IMG/VR virus record: IMGVR_UViG_3300032213_000901
Coordinates: 1 to 37,351 of that record
Source: a virus
Direction: 5' to 3' (one strand)
DNA: 37,351 nt
Shown: one piece after another, positions 7,324 to 37,275 of the stretch
How positions within the stretch are numbered: the stretch's first letter is position 1
Layout: each line of letters starts with the position of its first letter
Notes under the pieces: generated by a model
Seen by the model: the letters and a program-made list of their open reading frames with translations, nothing else
What the model was told of the DNA's origin: nothing
The model's database searches: none
Program-made: the position numbers and the translations under genes

Positions 7324-7568
7324 CGCTCACGGACTTCGTGTGGTTGGCAATCGGTGAAACACTTCTCGCGGGCACTTTCGCTCTCGGGATTCTTGTAGGG
7401 GTAGCTCTTAATCGAAAGGGCCAAAGGAATGGCGACAGCAACGAAAGAACGGAAGACGAGTGGAATCACGCTGACAACCTCAACGCTACGGGCGGCCCTG
7501 GCCGACGTGCTCAGGGCTGTGCCGACAAGGCACGCGAAGCCCATCCTGGGCAACGTCCTACTCGGTGA
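7320..7568 (+). CDS. Small membrane protein overlapping dnaN
   Basis: 82 residues. Starts with an ATG overlapping the previous stop and has GGAGAAGGG just upstream. The N-terminus has one strong membrane segment (VWLAIGETLLAGTFALGILV, residues 8-27). After residue 37 the reading frame runs for 140 bases inside the start of dnaN in another frame, and that part is polar and of low information. The real function may need only the first 40 residues. Support is coupling plus the membrane segment. Confidence 0.45.
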   Translation: MTLTDFVWLAIGETLLAGTFALGILVGVALNRKGQRNGDSNERTEDEWNHADNLNATGGPGRRAQGCADKAREAHPGQRPTR

Positions 7569-8547
7569 CGGACTGCTGACTGGCACGGATCTCGAGGTGC
7601 GGATTGACCGCGAGATTGAGTACCACGGTGACGCCATGCTGCTGCCGGCCCACAGGCTCAACGCCATCCTGCGGGCCGCGACCGGCGACGAGGTGGTGCT
7701 GAAGGTTGGCGAGTCCAGCGTGACGGTTAAGTGCGGTGCTGGCTCGTGGACGCTGCCAACCGAGGACGCCGCAGAGTTCCCAACGTGGGACGCTGGCGAT
7801 CTGAAGGCCATCTGCCGCCTGCCGGCGGATCAGTTCTGCCGTGCTGCCAAGGCTACGACGTACGCCACGGACAGTGAGAGCAGCCGCTACGCACTGGGCG
7901 GCGTGATGCTTGACGTGGAATCAACCGCAGACGGTTCGCGGCAGCACTGGGTTGGCACTGACGGGCGACGCCTGGCGTGCGTCGAGACTGAAAGTGACGA
8001 TGCCGTGGACGCCTCGCAGACCATCGTGCCGGCTAGGTTGCTGTCCACGGTGGCAAGCATGGCCACGGGTGACGGCAGCGTGCAGGTTGAGTCCAACGGC
8101 AAAGAGGTTCGGTTCTCGCTGGACGGCTGCACCATCACGGGCAGGCTCGTGGACGGCCGTTATCCACGGTGGCGTGACGTTGTTGGCGAGGCCGAAGGTG
8201 AGCCTACGGTGATCGACGTAATTGAACTGCTCCAGGCGGTGCAGTCCGCTGCCATCGTCACCAGTGAGCAGAGCAAGGGAATCAACCTGACGTGGACGGC
8301 CAACACGCTGGTGCTCGTGGGCCGCTCGAGCGAGTACGGCGAGAGCCGGGTGATTTGCCCGACGATCGCGGCCGGCTCGACGGCATCGACAAAGTTGGAC
8401 CCGAAGTTCATGGCTCAGTTCCTGGCCAACCTGCCGAGCGACGAAGAGCCGCACGTCGATGTCTACGTGAAGGACGCTCAGAGCCGTGTGCTTCTCCGCT
8501 GCGGGCCGTACACCGGAGTCATCATGCCGCTCGCGGAGGACGCATGA
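7429..8547 (+). CDS. dnaN: DNA polymerase III beta sliding clamp (DnaN)
   Basis: 372 residues, close to the usual 365-380 of bacterial DnaN. The clamp is a ring-shaped dimer that tethers polymerase to DNA. All three domains are visible: first with LRAALADVLRAVPTRHAKPI and LLTGTDLEVRI; second with ATTYATDSESSRYALGGVML and WVGTDGRRLACVE; third with VQSAAIVTSEQSKGINLTW and an end of YTGVIMPLAEDA, close to the YVIMPM end of cellular clamps. The phage has no polymerase gene, so this clamp would work with host Pol III or other clamp-binding proteins. ATG at 7429 is preceded by AAAGGG at about 8 bases. Coupled to the next gene. Confidence 0.93.
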   Translation: MATATKERKTSGITLTTSTLRAALADVLRAVPTRHAKPILGNVLLGDGLLTGTDLEVRIDREIEYHGDAMLLPAHRLNAILRAATGDEVVLKVGESSVTVKCGAGSWTLPTEDAAEFPTWDAGDLKAICRLPADQFCRAAKATTYATDSESSRYALGGVMLDVESTADGSRQHWVGTDGRRLACVETESDDAVDASQTIVPARLLSTVASMATGDGSVQVESNGKEVRFSLDGCTITGRLVDGRYPRWRDVVGEAEGEPTVIDVIELLQAVQSAAIVTSEQSKGINLTWTANTLVLVGRSSEYGESRVICPTIAAGSTASTKLDPKFMAQFLANLPSDEEPHVDVYVKDAQSRVLLRCGPYTGVIMPLAEDA

Positions 8548-8918
8548 AGGCCAGCGAAGCATCACGCAATCACTCGCGGGCTGATCTCGTCTTGCTGCAC
8601 CAGTTGTGGACCGAAGGCGTTCCGGCCGCAGAGATTGCTGAGCGGTTTGGCGTTGCTTATTCTACCGTTACGAAGTGGGCACAGCGGTACAAGCTGCCAC
8701 GCAGGACGCTGCACCCGGCTGACGAGCCAGAGGCACCGACGCCAGAGGACGATGCTGCATCGCTCGACGGGCTGGCGTTGTCGCCTTGGGTTGAGGAGCG
8801 TGCGAAGGTGGTGAGGGAGAAGCACTACGACAGCAGGCGGCGAGAGGAGCCATGCAACACGCAAAGCAAGGTGAGCAAGTGGCGTCACGGGATCTGCCAG
8901 CCGAGAGGCGTGGCGTGA
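8544..8918 (+). CDS. Helix-turn-helix protein
   Basis: 124 residues, overlapping the dnaN stop (ATGA). Residues 16-45 form a classic HTH (LHQLWTEGVPAAEIAERFGV then AYSTVTKWAQRYKLPRR), as in GcrA-like regulators and transposase/sigma-type HTHs. The middle is acidic and Pro-rich; the end is basic with Cys (EEPCNTQSKVSKWRHGICQP). Probably a sequence-specific DNA-binding regulator. Its stop lies at the start of the first long hairpin. Confidence 0.6.
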   Translation: MKASEASRNHSRADLVLLHQLWTEGVPAAEIAERFGVAYSTVTKWAQRYKLPRRTLHPADEPEAPTPEDDAASLDGLALSPWVEERAKVVREKHYDSRRREEPCNTQSKVSKWRHGICQPRGVA

Positions 8919-8965
8919 CAGAACGCTGCGATCAGCGGCTCGTCCGCTGCATCGCGTGGTTCTGT
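8918..8965 (+). repeat. Long imperfect hairpin 1 (before first DUF551-like gene)
   Basis: ACAGAAC (8918-8924) pairs with GTTCTGT (8959-8965); GCGAT (8928-8932) with ATCGC (8951-8955); CAGCGG (8933-8938) with CCGCTG (8944-8949). Loop CTCGT, 3x3 internal loop, one unpaired C (8950). The same arrangement, including the unpaired C, recurs at 9350-9401 with different bases in the stems. Structure kept while sequence changes argues for a selected fold. Confidence 0.65.
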
Positions 8966-8988
8966 GAGCGTAGAAAACAGGAGAGACG

Positions 8989-9345
8989 ATGAGACACTCG
9001 TTTCAGGTGATGGAAGAGTTGGGGGCCGAGTGCGATCGACTTGGAGTGCGCGTGGTTGACGTTCACGGGGATGTCGGGCCTGCGTCAGACTTCCTCGCTA
9101 CGGTCGCCCGCTACATCGAAGCCCGAGAGAAGGAGAGTCACGGCCGCCGATGGATTCCGATCTCCGAGTCTCTGCCGCAGGCCGACGACGGGACGCCAGA
9201 CGCGACTTTCCTTGTGTGGAATCGCACGGACGTTATCCAGGCATGGCGCGAGCAGGACGGCCGTTTCACTGGCGTCACTCGCGAGCATATCCCGCGAGTG
9301 ACGCATTGGATGCCGATGCCAGCCCCGCCAACGGATAGCAAGTAG
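8989..9345 (+). CDS. DUF551-like domain protein, copy 1
   Basis: 118 residues, ATG with AGGAG (8978-8982) upstream. The C-terminal 65 residues fit the DUF551 pattern found in many phages: an opening RRWIPISESLPQ, a central Val-rich strand with Trp, and a closing THWMPMPAPP. The N-terminal 50 residues are helical with no match. DUF551 has no established function. The gene is flanked by hairpin 1 and hairpin 2, and a second DUF551-like gene follows, suggesting duplication of a gene-plus-hairpin unit. Confidence 0.65.
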   Translation: MRHSFQVMEELGAECDRLGVRVVDVHGDVGPASDFLATVARYIEAREKESHGRRWIPISESLPQADDGTPDATFLVWNRTDVIQAWREQDGRFTGVTREHIPRVTHWMPMPAPPTDSK

Positions 9346-9349
9346 CCAC

Positions 9350-9401
9350 AGAACACGCAGGATAAGCGGCGGCTCCGCCGTCCGCTTCATCCGCTGGTTC
9401 T
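9350..9401 (+). repeat. Long imperfect hairpin 2 (between the DUF551-like genes)
   Basis: AGAAC (9350-9354) pairs with GTTCT (9397-9401); GGAT (9360-9363) with ATCC (9389-9392); AAGCGG (9364-9369) with CCGCTT (9382-9387); CGGC (9370-9373) with GCCG (9377-9380), loop TCC. An unpaired C at 9388 is in the same place as in hairpin 1. The outer arm CTGGTTCTAGGTC (9394-9406) also has an exact inverted copy at 9859-9871, on the far side of the next gene. Confidence 0.65.
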
Positions 9402-9427
9402 AGGTCGAACATTTGAGGAAGACGGAA

Positions 9428-9859
9428 ATGGCGAAACCATGGGAAGGCCCGTTTATCTGGCGAACCGACGACACTCGTTGCATCAAGTGCGACGAGCAGG
9501 GGCGATATCGCCTTTCTGTCCGTGGCATAACTGTTTGGGCTTGCCGCGAACACGCCATTGAGGCGATGCAGTCGAAAGAAGGCGGCGGCTATACGCTTGA
9601 GGACGCAAAGGGCTTGTGTTCGGAACTTGACCGCGAGGAAGAGGATCGGCTTAACACGCGAACGTCAAGGTGGATACCAGTTGCCGAGTCGATGCCAGAG
9701 GACGGCGTGACTGTCATGCAGGCGGTCGCAGGACGGCCCGGCGTGGCATCTGGCGTAACGCACAAGGGCGTGTGGTGGGATGTGCTTTGCGGGCGTCCGC
9801 AGCAAGCACAGCCGACGCATTGGATGGAACTCCCGGCCCCGCCGGTTGTGTGCAAGTAG
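9428..9859 (+). CDS. DUF551-like domain protein, copy 2, with zinc-knuckle N-terminus
   Basis: 143 residues from the ATG at 9428 (GAGGAAG about 7 bases upstream; a TTG at 9413 is less likely). C-terminal 65 residues repeat the DUF551 layout of the previous gene: SRWIPVAESMPEDG near residue 80 and PTHWMELPAPP at the end. The N-terminus differs: CIKC near residue 20 and WACREH near residue 40 make a CxxC...CxxH set that could bind zinc. So only the C-terminal domain is shared with copy 1. Its stop codon overlaps an inverted repeat matching the right arm of hairpin 2. Confidence 0.65.
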   Translation: MAKPWEGPFIWRTDDTRCIKCDEQGRYRLSVRGITVWACREHAIEAMQSKEGGGYTLEDAKGLCSELDREEEDRLNTRTSRWIPVAESMPEDGVTVMQAVAGRPGVASGVTHKGVWWDVLCGRPQQAQPTHWMELPAPPVVCK

Positions 9860-9871
9860 ACCTAGAACCAG
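9859..9871. repeat. Inverted copy of hairpin 2 outer arm
   Basis: GACCTAGAACCAG is the exact reverse complement of 9394-9406. The two 13-mers bracket the second DUF551-like gene. The first DUF551-like gene shows a similar but imperfect bracket: GCGTGGTTCTGTG (8954-8966) against CACAGAACACGC (9347-9358 region). Confidence 0.8.
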
Positions 9872-9875
9872 TGAT

Positions 9876-9986
9876 TATGCGGTTCCCGATAGCGTCCCTC
9901 GTTGCTGCATAGTACGCCGCCGATTCCCACCACACGGCCGCGAGAATCTGATTTACGCCGCTATCGTGGTCCGCATAGTACGCCGC
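9876..9986 (+). ncRNA. Structured non-coding stretch with alternative pairings
   Basis: The gap 9860-10058 has no gene. TATGCGG (9876-9882) and CGATAGCG (9887-9894) are complementary to CCGCATA (9971-9977) and CGCTATCG (9959-9966), a 19-base arm pair with three internal mismatches and a 64-base loop. GCATAGTACGCCGC occurs twice (9907-9920, 9973-9986), so the left TATGC can pair with either copy. A perfect TTGACA (9998-10003) follows, without a clear -10. This may be a regulatory RNA, a switch or a protein-binding site. Confidence 0.4.
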
Positions 9987-10022
9987 AGGCGGTTTGCTTG
10001 ACAGCGTTGCCATTCTGCGTGA

Positions 10023-10058: not shown

Positions 10059-10358
10059 ATGATTCGTTGTCTTTTGGTTTTGCTTGCTGCCCTGGCCTGC
10101 ATTCACGCCAACGCCGACACCACCGTGGTGGCTCGTCGTGGCTCTGTCATCAGTGCCCAGGATCACGCCGTCGTGATTGCTCGCCGTGGCTCGCTGGTTC
10201 ACAGCAGCTGCGGACAGTACGAGGGGATCGGTACAGGCTCAACGCCTGAGCAGGCCCGGCGCAACTGCTGCTTCTTCGGGAAGCGTGTGATCGTCGAGGA
10301 AGGCGTGGCGTACTCGCCCGTGGTTCGTCGCTGGTTCGCGGTGATTCGCTATCGTTGA
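10059..10358 (+). CDS. Small secreted cysteine-containing protein
   Basis: 99 residues. Starts with a clear signal peptide (MIRCLLVLLAALACIHANA, cleavage likely after Ala19) and CACGGAGGA upstream of the ATG. The mature part has an Arg/Gly/Val-rich stretch and a STPEQARRNCCFFGKR segment with paired Cys, ending in basic aromatic residues. It would be exported to the periplasm or beyond. No family recognised. Exported small proteins outside the lysis region often alter the host surface, for example to exclude other phages, but nothing here shows that directly. Confidence 0.65.
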   Translation: MIRCLLVLLAALACIHANADTTVVARRGSVISAQDHAVVIARRGSLVHSSCGQYEGIGTGSTPEQARRNCCFFGKRVIVEEGVAYSPVVRRWFAVIRYR

Positions 10359-10759
10359 TGCACGCCGTGTCATTCACCGTCGCAGGGCAGCCCGTCCCAC
10401 AGCCGAGGCCACGAGTCTCGACTGCGGGCGGGTTCGCCCGTGCGTACGTGCCAGGCGAGCACCCAGTGCATGCGTACCGCGAGGCTATCGCAGCAGCTGC
10501 TCGAGCGGCTGGGCTCACGACAACCGGCGAGCCGCTGAACGTGGTGATTGACGCGGTGTTTGAGCGGCCGAAGTCCCACATGCGAAAGGCCGGCGTGAAA
10601 CCCGACGCACCGAAGTTGCCAAGGCCCGACGTGGACAACATTGCCAAGGCCGTGCTTGACGCATTGCAGGACGTGATTGGCGATGACTCGCTGGTTGGCC
10701 GATTGGTGGTGGAAAAGTCCTACGGCCAGGAGGCACGGACTACCGTGCGAGTGTCGTGA
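10358..10759 (+). CDS. rusA: RusA-family Holliday junction resolvase
   Basis: 133 residues, the usual RusA size. RusA dimers cut four-way junctions symmetrically. Family signature is complete: N-terminal VSFTVAGQPVPQPRPRV, the acidic RPDVDNIAKAVLDAL (residues 89-103, with Asp91, Asp93 and Asp101), and GDD (108-110) that completes metal binding. ATG at 10358 overlaps the previous stop. It would resolve junctions made by RecT annealing or replication restart, producing DNA fit for packaging. Coupled by GTGA to the methyltransferase. Confidence 0.88.
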   Translation: MHAVSFTVAGQPVPQPRPRVSTAGGFARAYVPGEHPVHAYREAIAAAARAAGLTTTGEPLNVVIDAVFERPKSHMRKAGVKPDAPKLPRPDVDNIAKAVLDALQDVIGDDSLVGRLVVEKSYGQEARTTVRVS

Positions 10760-24709: not shown

Positions 24710-24726
24710 CGCTGGACACGAATAGT

Positions 24727-24779
24727 AAAACGCCCAAGAGCGGGCGGCTGGGTTCGCCCGGCCGCCCGTTTGGCGTTTA
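24727..24779 (+). terminator. Strong hairpin after the capsid genes
   Basis: AAACGCC (24728-24734) pairs with GGCGTTT (24772-24778), enclosing CGGGCGGC (24741-24748) paired with GCCGCCCG (24761-24768). The T residues in the 3' arm are few, so termination could be partial. That would leave capsid proteins expressed more than downstream genes. Confidence 0.6.
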
Positions 24780-24792
24780 CCAAGGAGCACTC

Positions 24793-35951: not shown

Positions 35952-36132
35952 GCCGCTGACCGACGCCTACCTGCTGGAGTGCGAGCAGGCCGCACGTCGG
36001 TTCCAGGGAGCATGGACCGGAACCAGCGGCGATCTTGCGGCCAGGCTGATGCACACGCTGGCCGAGATACGCCGACTCAGGGCCGAGTGGCAATTGCTGG
36101 CGGTGGCTGCGGCCATGAAAGAGAACGCCTAG
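35935..36132 (+). CDS. Small helical hypothetical protein
   Basis: 65 residues, wholly helical (YLLECEQAARRFQGAWTGTS; LMHTLAEIRRLRAEWQLLAV). Last gene of the rightward transcription unit, followed by a strong terminator. No family recognised. Confidence 0.55.
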   Translation: MTTSTEPLTDAYLLECEQAARRFQGAWTGTSGDLAARLMHTLAEIRRLRAEWQLLAVAAAMKENA

Positions 36133-36135
36133 GCC

Positions 36136-36184
36136 AGGGCTTGAGCGGCGCGGGTTTTTACCCTTTCCCCGCGTCGCTCGCCCT
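36136..36184 (+). terminator. Strong terminator hairpin at end of the rightward genes
   Basis: GAGCGGCGCGGG (36143-36154) pairs with CCCGCGTCGCTC (36168-36179; one G-U), and outer AGGGC (36136-36140) with GCCCT (36180-36184). The loop holds T5 and CCC. The stem is very stable; no T-tract follows, so it may work in both directions, being placed between convergent transcription from the late genes and the integrase. Confidence 0.65.
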
Positions 36185-36206
36185 GTGCCTGTCATAAAAA
36201 CGCCGC

Positions 36207-36333: not shown

Positions 36334-37275
36334 CTACCTTGGCTTTCCAGGCCCAGCGTCGGGCCTGTCTGCCGGCCGCTGCGTGATGTCTGGCAGGTAG
36401 TCCAGGTTGCTTTCTCTGCCCGTGATCTCCTCGTCGTAGTAGTGGGTTTCGGCCATCTCCTCTGACGAATGCCCCAACTGCTTCTTGGCTGACACGCCCG
36501 CTTTTTTGAGGTAACTGGCTGTGGATTTGCGGATGCTGTGGAACGGGTGGTACGGCACGCCAGCTGTGCGACACAGCACACGCAGACTGCCGTAGATCGA
36601 CAGGAACTCACGATCCTCCACCCAAGGCCATACACGCTCGCTAGGAGCCCCTTGCTGCATGGCCAGCATCCTGGCCAGTTCCGGCGTGATCGCCCGCGTA
36701 ATCGTCTCCCTGTGGCCTTTGCGAGTGGCAGCCAAGAACGTCAGCGTGTGCCGCTCAAAGTCCACCTCAGACCACCGGAGTTCGAGCACAGCACCGATGC
36801 GCTCGCCCGTCTGGAACATGGCCAGAATTTTGGTCACCCAATACCAAGCCGCTGGCTTGCCCGCTACGGTGCCTTTCCTGTGCCGGGCGGTATCGACGAG
36901 CCTTGCGAGCTCATCGGCCCTGAAAGCCTTCGGGACGGGCTTAGGGACGCGAGGCCGGGCGTAGTCTGGGAACTCGACCAGTTCGCCGTCAGACCGTTTC
37001 CAGCGTTTCTTGGCCAGCCACGTCCACAAGCTACGCAGGTGGGCGGAATCTTTGGCCAGACTGGCCGGCGAGATTTTCTTCCACTTGCTGTGTTGGGTGG
37101 CCTGCCGCCACCGCAGGAACTTTGCCGCCGTCAGATCGTCAAGATCATCGACTGTGGGCTCGTGCCCGAGGAAGTCTCGGAACCTGTCCAGCGTGCTCAG
37201 GTACATGACCATTGAGCGATCAGAAAGCCCTTTTAGCGGGGCCACCCTATCAACAAACAACTCTCTAAGCGTCAT
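36334..37275 (-). CDS. int: Tyrosine-family integrase
   Basis: 313 residues, start codon complement at 37273-37275, with GGGAGG 6 bases upstream. N-terminal SAM-like DNA-binding domain to about 110, then the catalytic domain with Arg159 (TGERIGAVLELRW), Lys186 (TRKGHRE), HSIR (His246, Arg249), LGHS (His269) and Tyr279/280 as nucleophile. It inserts and removes the phage at an attachment site. The gene is the only one on the - strand and crosses the circular join; its first codons are repeated at 1-47. Confidence 0.93.
   Translation of the reverse strand: MTLRELFVDRVAPLKGLSDRSMVMYLSTLDRFRDFLGHEPTVDDLDDLTAAKFLRWRQATQHSKWKKISPASLAKDSAHLRSLWTWLAKKRWKRSDGELVEFPDYARPRVPKPVPKAFRADELARLVDTARHRKGTVAGKPAAWYWVTKILAMFQTGERIGAVLELRWSEVDFERHTLTFLAATRKGHRETITRAITPELARMLAMQQGAPSERVWPWVEDREFLSIYGSLRVLCRTAGVPYHPFHSIRKSTASYLKKAGVSAKKQLGHSSEEMAETHYYDEEITGRESNLDYLPDITQRPADRPDAGPGKPR

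Follow-up and report, generated by a model that had tools for sequence, protein, structure and literature searches.

The window, that is, the whole stretch of 37,351 nucleotides that was analysed, is a virus record carrying genes for a terminase, a portal, a major head protein, a tape measure and a phage-type integrase. Between two genes of the phage backbone, encoding an HTH protein and RusA, it contains in this order a first hairpin, a DUF551 gene, a second hairpin, a second DUF551 gene and an end without hairpin at position 9867. Both flanking genes are kept in relatives, the HTH gene in many of them as far as the edge of the array. The features of the locus are the following (CM, covariance model):

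8547..8918, + strand: backbone HTH gene flanking the array on its distal side (Pfam HTH_23)
8918..8965, + strand: predicted attC site 1, compact hairpin (CM R1 61.6 bits; predicted crossover AA^C at 8923/8924)
8924..9353, + strand: cassette 1, attC 1 plus the first DUF551 gene, bounded by both sites (last bases ..CCACAGAA; complementary ends CTGTG / CACAG)
8989..9345, + strand: cassette gene 1, 118 aa (DUF551 at residues 55-115, Pfam PF04448, E 4.4e-9)
9348..9403, + strand: predicted attC site 2, compact hairpin (CM R1 69.7 bits; predicted crossover AA^C at 9353/9354)
9354..9867, + strand: cassette 2, attC 2 plus the second DUF551 gene (last bases ..ACCTAGAA)
9428..9859, + strand: cassette gene 2, 143 aa (DUF551 at residues 82-139, Pfam PF04448, E 1e-8)
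9866..9886, - strand: attI-like site without hairpin, at the attI-proximal end of the array (GGAACCGCATAATCACTGG^TT, the caret standing after the G of the GTT core)
10355..10759, + strand: RusA gene, phage backbone on the attI-like side (Pfam RusA, 82 bits)

A blastn search of positions 8547-9990 against named phages returned chance-level matches only, and P0002 had no close relatives among viral contigs. Elsewhere, the window encodes its own DNA polymerase III beta clamp (7429-8547), which is present in about 60 viral contigs, and very stable hairpins of a type other than attC are predicted at 24711-24780 and 36121-36200.

The original prediction described matching hairpins framing the two genes, and both indeed fold as described, the second being mapped here to 9348-9403. 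Their RNA folding z values are -3.5 and -4.8, and their DNA folding z is about -5 on either strand. Each has an AGAAC/GTTCT base, a GAT/ATC middle stem and an AGCGG/CCGCT upper stem, and in the 3' arm a single C is bulged. That the two proteins share only their C-terminal domain agrees with DUF551 matches confined to the C-terminal halves. The 13-base inverted copy reported after the second gene is exact (9394-9406 and 9859-9871) and corresponds to the two ends of one cassette. Moreover, a direct repeat of 71% identity (9300-9354 and 9814-9868) covers both gene ends and the first five bases of the next site.

The hairpins display the architecture of attC sites, which are single-strand hairpins formed by an imperfect inverted repeat: an outer stem (AGAAC/GTTCT), an unpaired spacer, an inner stem and a loop. 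The attC crossover cores AAC, at the start, and GTT, at the end, are present, and homology breaks at these cores. The heptamer consensus GTTRRRY is unmatched, the two sites reading GTTCTGT and GTTCTAG; the same deviation, GTTC, is found in the IntI-linked attI and attC sites of the host family (GTTCTG, GTTCGG). GTTRRRY is usual and was not treated as defining for attC, the constant part being GTT. One extrahelical base lies in the 5' arm of the canonical strand, here the minus strand, at the same position as in a Massilia site beside IntI. It is a G on the top strand, unlike the C that is usual in attC sites (PMC2727003). Over 27 sites, 98.9% of the inner-stem cells are paired. The compensating differences between paired bases noted in the original prediction were recovered in this set, since 20 inner-stem cells changed on both sides against 7.0 in shuffles; 8 of the 10 pairs never vary, and the compensatory pairing is real but modest. 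A CM search found just these two sites in the window, 430 bp apart, and a search of Rfam with the hairpins matched no curated RNA family. Judged from these sequence features, both hairpins are attC-type integron recombination sites, predicted to be recombined by an integron integrase.

The units delimited by these sites behave as cassettes. The ends of an integron cassette must pair when the cassette is circular. In the window, complementary ends are present in cassette 1 and also in cassette 2, which begins with GTTCTAGGTC and finishes with GACCTAGAAC. Comparing the bases after GTT at the start with those before AAC at the end, complementarity of at least 4 nt was found in 49 of 85 phage units, against 14.4 expected and a maximum of 28 in 20,000 permutations; the flanks of one same hairpin behaved like random pairs, in a smaller set. 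Among the close relatives of the window phage, whose beta clamps are mostly 79-96% identical, the interval between HTH and RusA is hypervariable. Homology on the left-hand side often stops at 8918-8926, at some loci earlier, inside the HTH gene; on the right-hand side it begins at 9864-9866 in the 8 loci where similarity reaches that edge. In one pair of contigs (L076 and L100), 4803 bp are identical up to a divergence at AGAA^C. The hairpin type is only loosely linked to either neighbouring gene, the median edit distance of hairpins being 7 for pairs sharing the downstream flank only, 14 for those sharing the upstream flank only and 23 for unrelated pairs, so that homologous recombination or use of both strands probably occurs too.

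At the right boundary, the minus strand reads GGAACCGCATAATCACTGG^TTC, the sole match of an attI-like motif in the window, with 0 matches in 300 Markov simulations; the junction of array and attI-like site lies at 9867/9868. The phage site shares the motif GGA(A)CCG[CT]ATAA..GTT with host sequence close to the 3' end of intI. In six other phage loci, a similar site comes one cassette (230-605 nt) after the final attC that was detected; those of L280 and L287, among these six loci or beside them, are at 503-532 nt, and that of L003 is about 1.4 kb after the final attC. Because the motif matches host sequence beside intI and recurs past the last attC in other phage loci, the phage is taken to carry an attI-like site, predicted to accept cassettes in an IntI reaction. 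Adjoining it is an exact 14-base direct repeat, GCATAGTACGCCGC, at 9907-9920 and 9973-9986, the copies of which are possibly extra integrase-binding repeats as in attI1.

The order of genes in hosts, the additional base and the end that lacks a hairpin all indicate that the canonical top strand of attC is the minus strand in the window; hence a cassette consists of an attC and the following gene, which points towards attI. The conventional polarity, in which the hairpin belongs to the preceding gene, was considered first and rejected, as five features place the hairpin with the following gene: the bulged base, the order of attI and intI in hosts, the hairpin-less end, ORFs starting inside attC and cassettes shared between host and phage. 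Indeed, in a cassette-sharing pair formed by the planctomycete genome G047 and the phage contig L038, the hairpin moves with the gene after it. The longer credible ORF was reversed at 105 phage sites and not at 35, as against 1 and 9 host-family sites (Fisher p 7e-5).

The original prediction would have been abandoned if no further matches near DUF551 genes, or only matches lacking compensatory pairing, had appeared in other phages. One 22-base pattern built from both hairpins matched 114 viral-contig stretches, and the expected compensation was seen; several stretches held 2-4 copies spaced 300-1000 bp apart with different genes in between, and the second hairpin of the window recurs in many other phage contigs. 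The association with DUF551 did not hold as stated, this domain being only one kind of cargo: it is present in 22 of 138 cassette proteins of related contigs, the rest being methyltransferases, HNH nucleases, a Mom protein or proteins of no known family. The CM detected sites in all 50 contigs checked, up to 14 in each, and 29 of the 50 encode the phage terminase TerL. A second common type of cassette protein (L038, L047, L064, L266 and others) has an end motif like LTDEER..LLERLG and no Pfam match, and contig L106 carries attC-type sites on both strands.

In the long sites of relatives, attC appears to encode the N-terminus of a protein. A Shine-Dalgarno sequence and an ATG lie in the loop of 31 of 58 long phage sites, from which the ORF crosses the 3' arm into the gene, mostly in one shared frame (28 of 31). 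In most of these ORFs the 3' arm supplies the N-terminal tag Ser-Ala-Ala-Ser-x-Gly-Ser/Tyr, and the same tag is found on unrelated proteins that resemble, by Pfam counts and motifs, cytosine methyltransferases, N6 methyltransferases, HNH nucleases and a HAD hydrolase. Methyltransferase-like cassette genes that begin in the attC loop with this tag are found at L103:3222-4301, L094:10417-12084, L269:5751-6449 and L272:8362-9048; such genes, together with the Mom-family match, hint at anti-restriction cargo. The two sites of the window are compact, and 107 of 129 compact sites precede a gene with its own start.

None of the 50 contigs checked contained IntI above the cut-off, these being metagenomic contigs that are possibly incomplete, so that an integrase elsewhere in the genome is possible. 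The tyrosine recombinase of the window (36334-37275) was rejected as IntI candidate, as it fits XerC-type and phage integrase models and not TIGR02249. A search of viral contigs for IntI yielded one record, L183, without attC sites of this kind; its integron-integrase-like protein (L183:8001-8945, IMG/VR), 43% identical to that of bacterial genome G004, may be a phage-borne IntI or come from a bacterial contig. With at least two nearby attC sites and no TIGR02249 match, the window has the make-up of a CALIN. It also holds an attI-like site and cassettes, but, unlike a complete integron, no intI, which is likewise missing from the 49 other contigs.

A looser pattern matched sites in bacteria, namely in Planctomycetota, Massilia and Competibacter relatives. 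TIGR02249 was matched in each of the 9 bacterial genomes tested, in 7 of them above the curated cut-off, and the sites of Pla86, Massilia and C1_MAG_00073 have IntI nearby. A related IntI is found in 31 of 72 genomes of the GTDB family of C1_MAG_00073. The sites of this family have the same core as in phages and about 40 nt more in the loop; on this comparison, the compact phage site looks like a host site minus the loop insert. The genome G047, which has two integron-integrase matches, shares two cassettes with the phage contig L038, one with 93.9% identity in 310 bp and the other with 98.5% in 330 bp. The similarity ends at AAC cores, one outer edge of the second cassette being unseen since the host contig stops there. 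The hairpin of one shared cassette contains a compensatory A-T to T-A change, and the second cassette (98.5%) adjoins the host sequence ..GGAACCGTATAAATGAGAG^TTC. Furthermore, four more genomes of this family (L194, L195, L197, L198) have a motif of the same kind, GGACCGTATAAATACAAG^TTC, about 310 bp past the 3' end of intI. The first cassette next to the IntI of G004 (L178:1047-2180, minus strand) is an inverted DUF551 cassette; its contig also has chromosomal genes.

Taken together, the locus is very probably a two-cassette array of integron type, made of attC hairpins and an attI-like site, in a planctomycete phage without recognisable IntI, with exchange likely carried out by host IntI. 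As no IntI exceeded the cut-off in the 50 contigs, an enzyme acting in trans is needed, and host IntI is the natural candidate; matching cassettes in planctomycete integrons, along with the lack of an own integrase, suggest that these phages probably borrow the host's cassette-shuffling enzyme. Phage DNA would enter a host making IntI, which would bind the folded gene strand (the canonical attC bottom strand), cut at AA^C and, acting at attI or attC, swap cassettes of phage arrays with those of the host integron; the cassette genes would be read by phage transcription running through the array. We infer the role of host IntI as recombinase, the active strand and the benefit to the phage; known attC sites (PMC2727003) and phage attC sites active with IntI1 (PMC9892861) serve as the models for expecting recombination through a single strand. 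The suggestion in the original prediction of a repeated mobile unit marked by a recombination site with a folded single-strand form is thus supported: attC homology, crossover positions and cassette ends, a resemblance to attI, cassettes in common with a host and contigs without IntI are all observed, and recombination by host IntI is predicted. More broadly, we favour, with some reserve, the view that planctomycete phages of one widespread group have their own form of integron, lacking an integrase and made up of an attI-like site and reversed attC-first cassettes in which attC can supply ribosome binding site, start codon and N-terminal tag, and that they trade genes, some likely anti-restriction, with host integrons through host IntI in trans.

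The array could instead be a dead piece of a host integron, a fossil CALIN that entered long ago and now varies by homologous recombination only. Contigs without integrase would be expected in that case, but the hypervariable content in close relatives, the 98.5% identical cassette with base-exact ends in a host, and compact sites and reversed genes typical of phages make it unlikely. It is less probable still that the hairpins are small mobile repeats (REP/MITE-like) or hotspots merely promoting homologous recombination between phages: the hairpin type is swapped independently of both neighbours in many pairs, as such elements would allow, but complementary unit ends, an attI-like end without hairpin and near-identical cassettes in a host integron would be left unpredicted. 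A regulatory RNA element tied to DUF551 genes (riboswitch-like, antiterminator or translational leader), the other option of the original prediction, would explain a conserved hairpin upstream of genes, paired-base changes and the start codon in the loop of many long copies, but is scarcely credible given the lack of an Rfam match, the low share of DUF551 cargo, unrelated flanking genes, homology breaking at AAC and G^TT, mutually complementary unit ends and the same sites beside IntI in bacteria; the cassette-exchange data contradict it, and a role in translation could coexist with recombination.

Integrons are bacterial gene-capture platforms. If the integron reading is correct, a group of phages reserves one constant genomic position for cassettes and has near-identical cassettes in common with host integrons. 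Genes would thereby have a concrete path from one cassette pool to the other, phage or bacterial, and the action of IntI on invading DNA could be studied in this system. Moreover, attC apparently serving as coding sequence would place protein-level selection on a recombination hairpin.

Several known systems share features with the locus. With ORF-11 of attI1 and with the short ORFs that lie within attC (PMC8876359), a cassette gene benefits from translation signals in the recombination site, as here; in those cases a short separate ORF ends and translation restarts, whereas here the cassette gene itself appears to begin inside the attC loop and to continue across the arm in the same frame. 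The 'portable' DUF551 domain of phage Ea22 variant V2 and YfdS (PMC10834534) likewise combines a C-terminal DUF551 with variable N-terminal parts, but DUF551 is carried here in integron-type cassettes. The chromosomal integrons of Planctomycetota (Pla86 and the GTDB family of C1_MAG_00073) have the attC core GATCAGCGG..CCGCTGCATC, a similar attI motif and shared cassettes; they differ in host sites with mostly about 40 nt longer loops, in the usual gene orientation and in arrays with intI. The open-access papers searched contained no account of reversed attC-first cassettes, of such phage attI-like sites or of genes starting in attC and reading through. In the survey of Qi et al. 2023 (PMC9892861), 21 phages were reported to have parts of integrons and 17 phage CALINs were described, and IntI1 recombined 5 of the 6 phage attC sites that they tested. 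Those CALINs, like the present array, have attC sites and cassettes in a phage without IntI. Here, unlike in those CALINs, dozens of related contigs carry up to 14 sites each with reversed genes, an attI-like site lies at the array end, and cassettes are shared with an identified host lineage. Clusters of attC in phages were already known; the reversed attC-first form and the phage attI-like site appear to be new.
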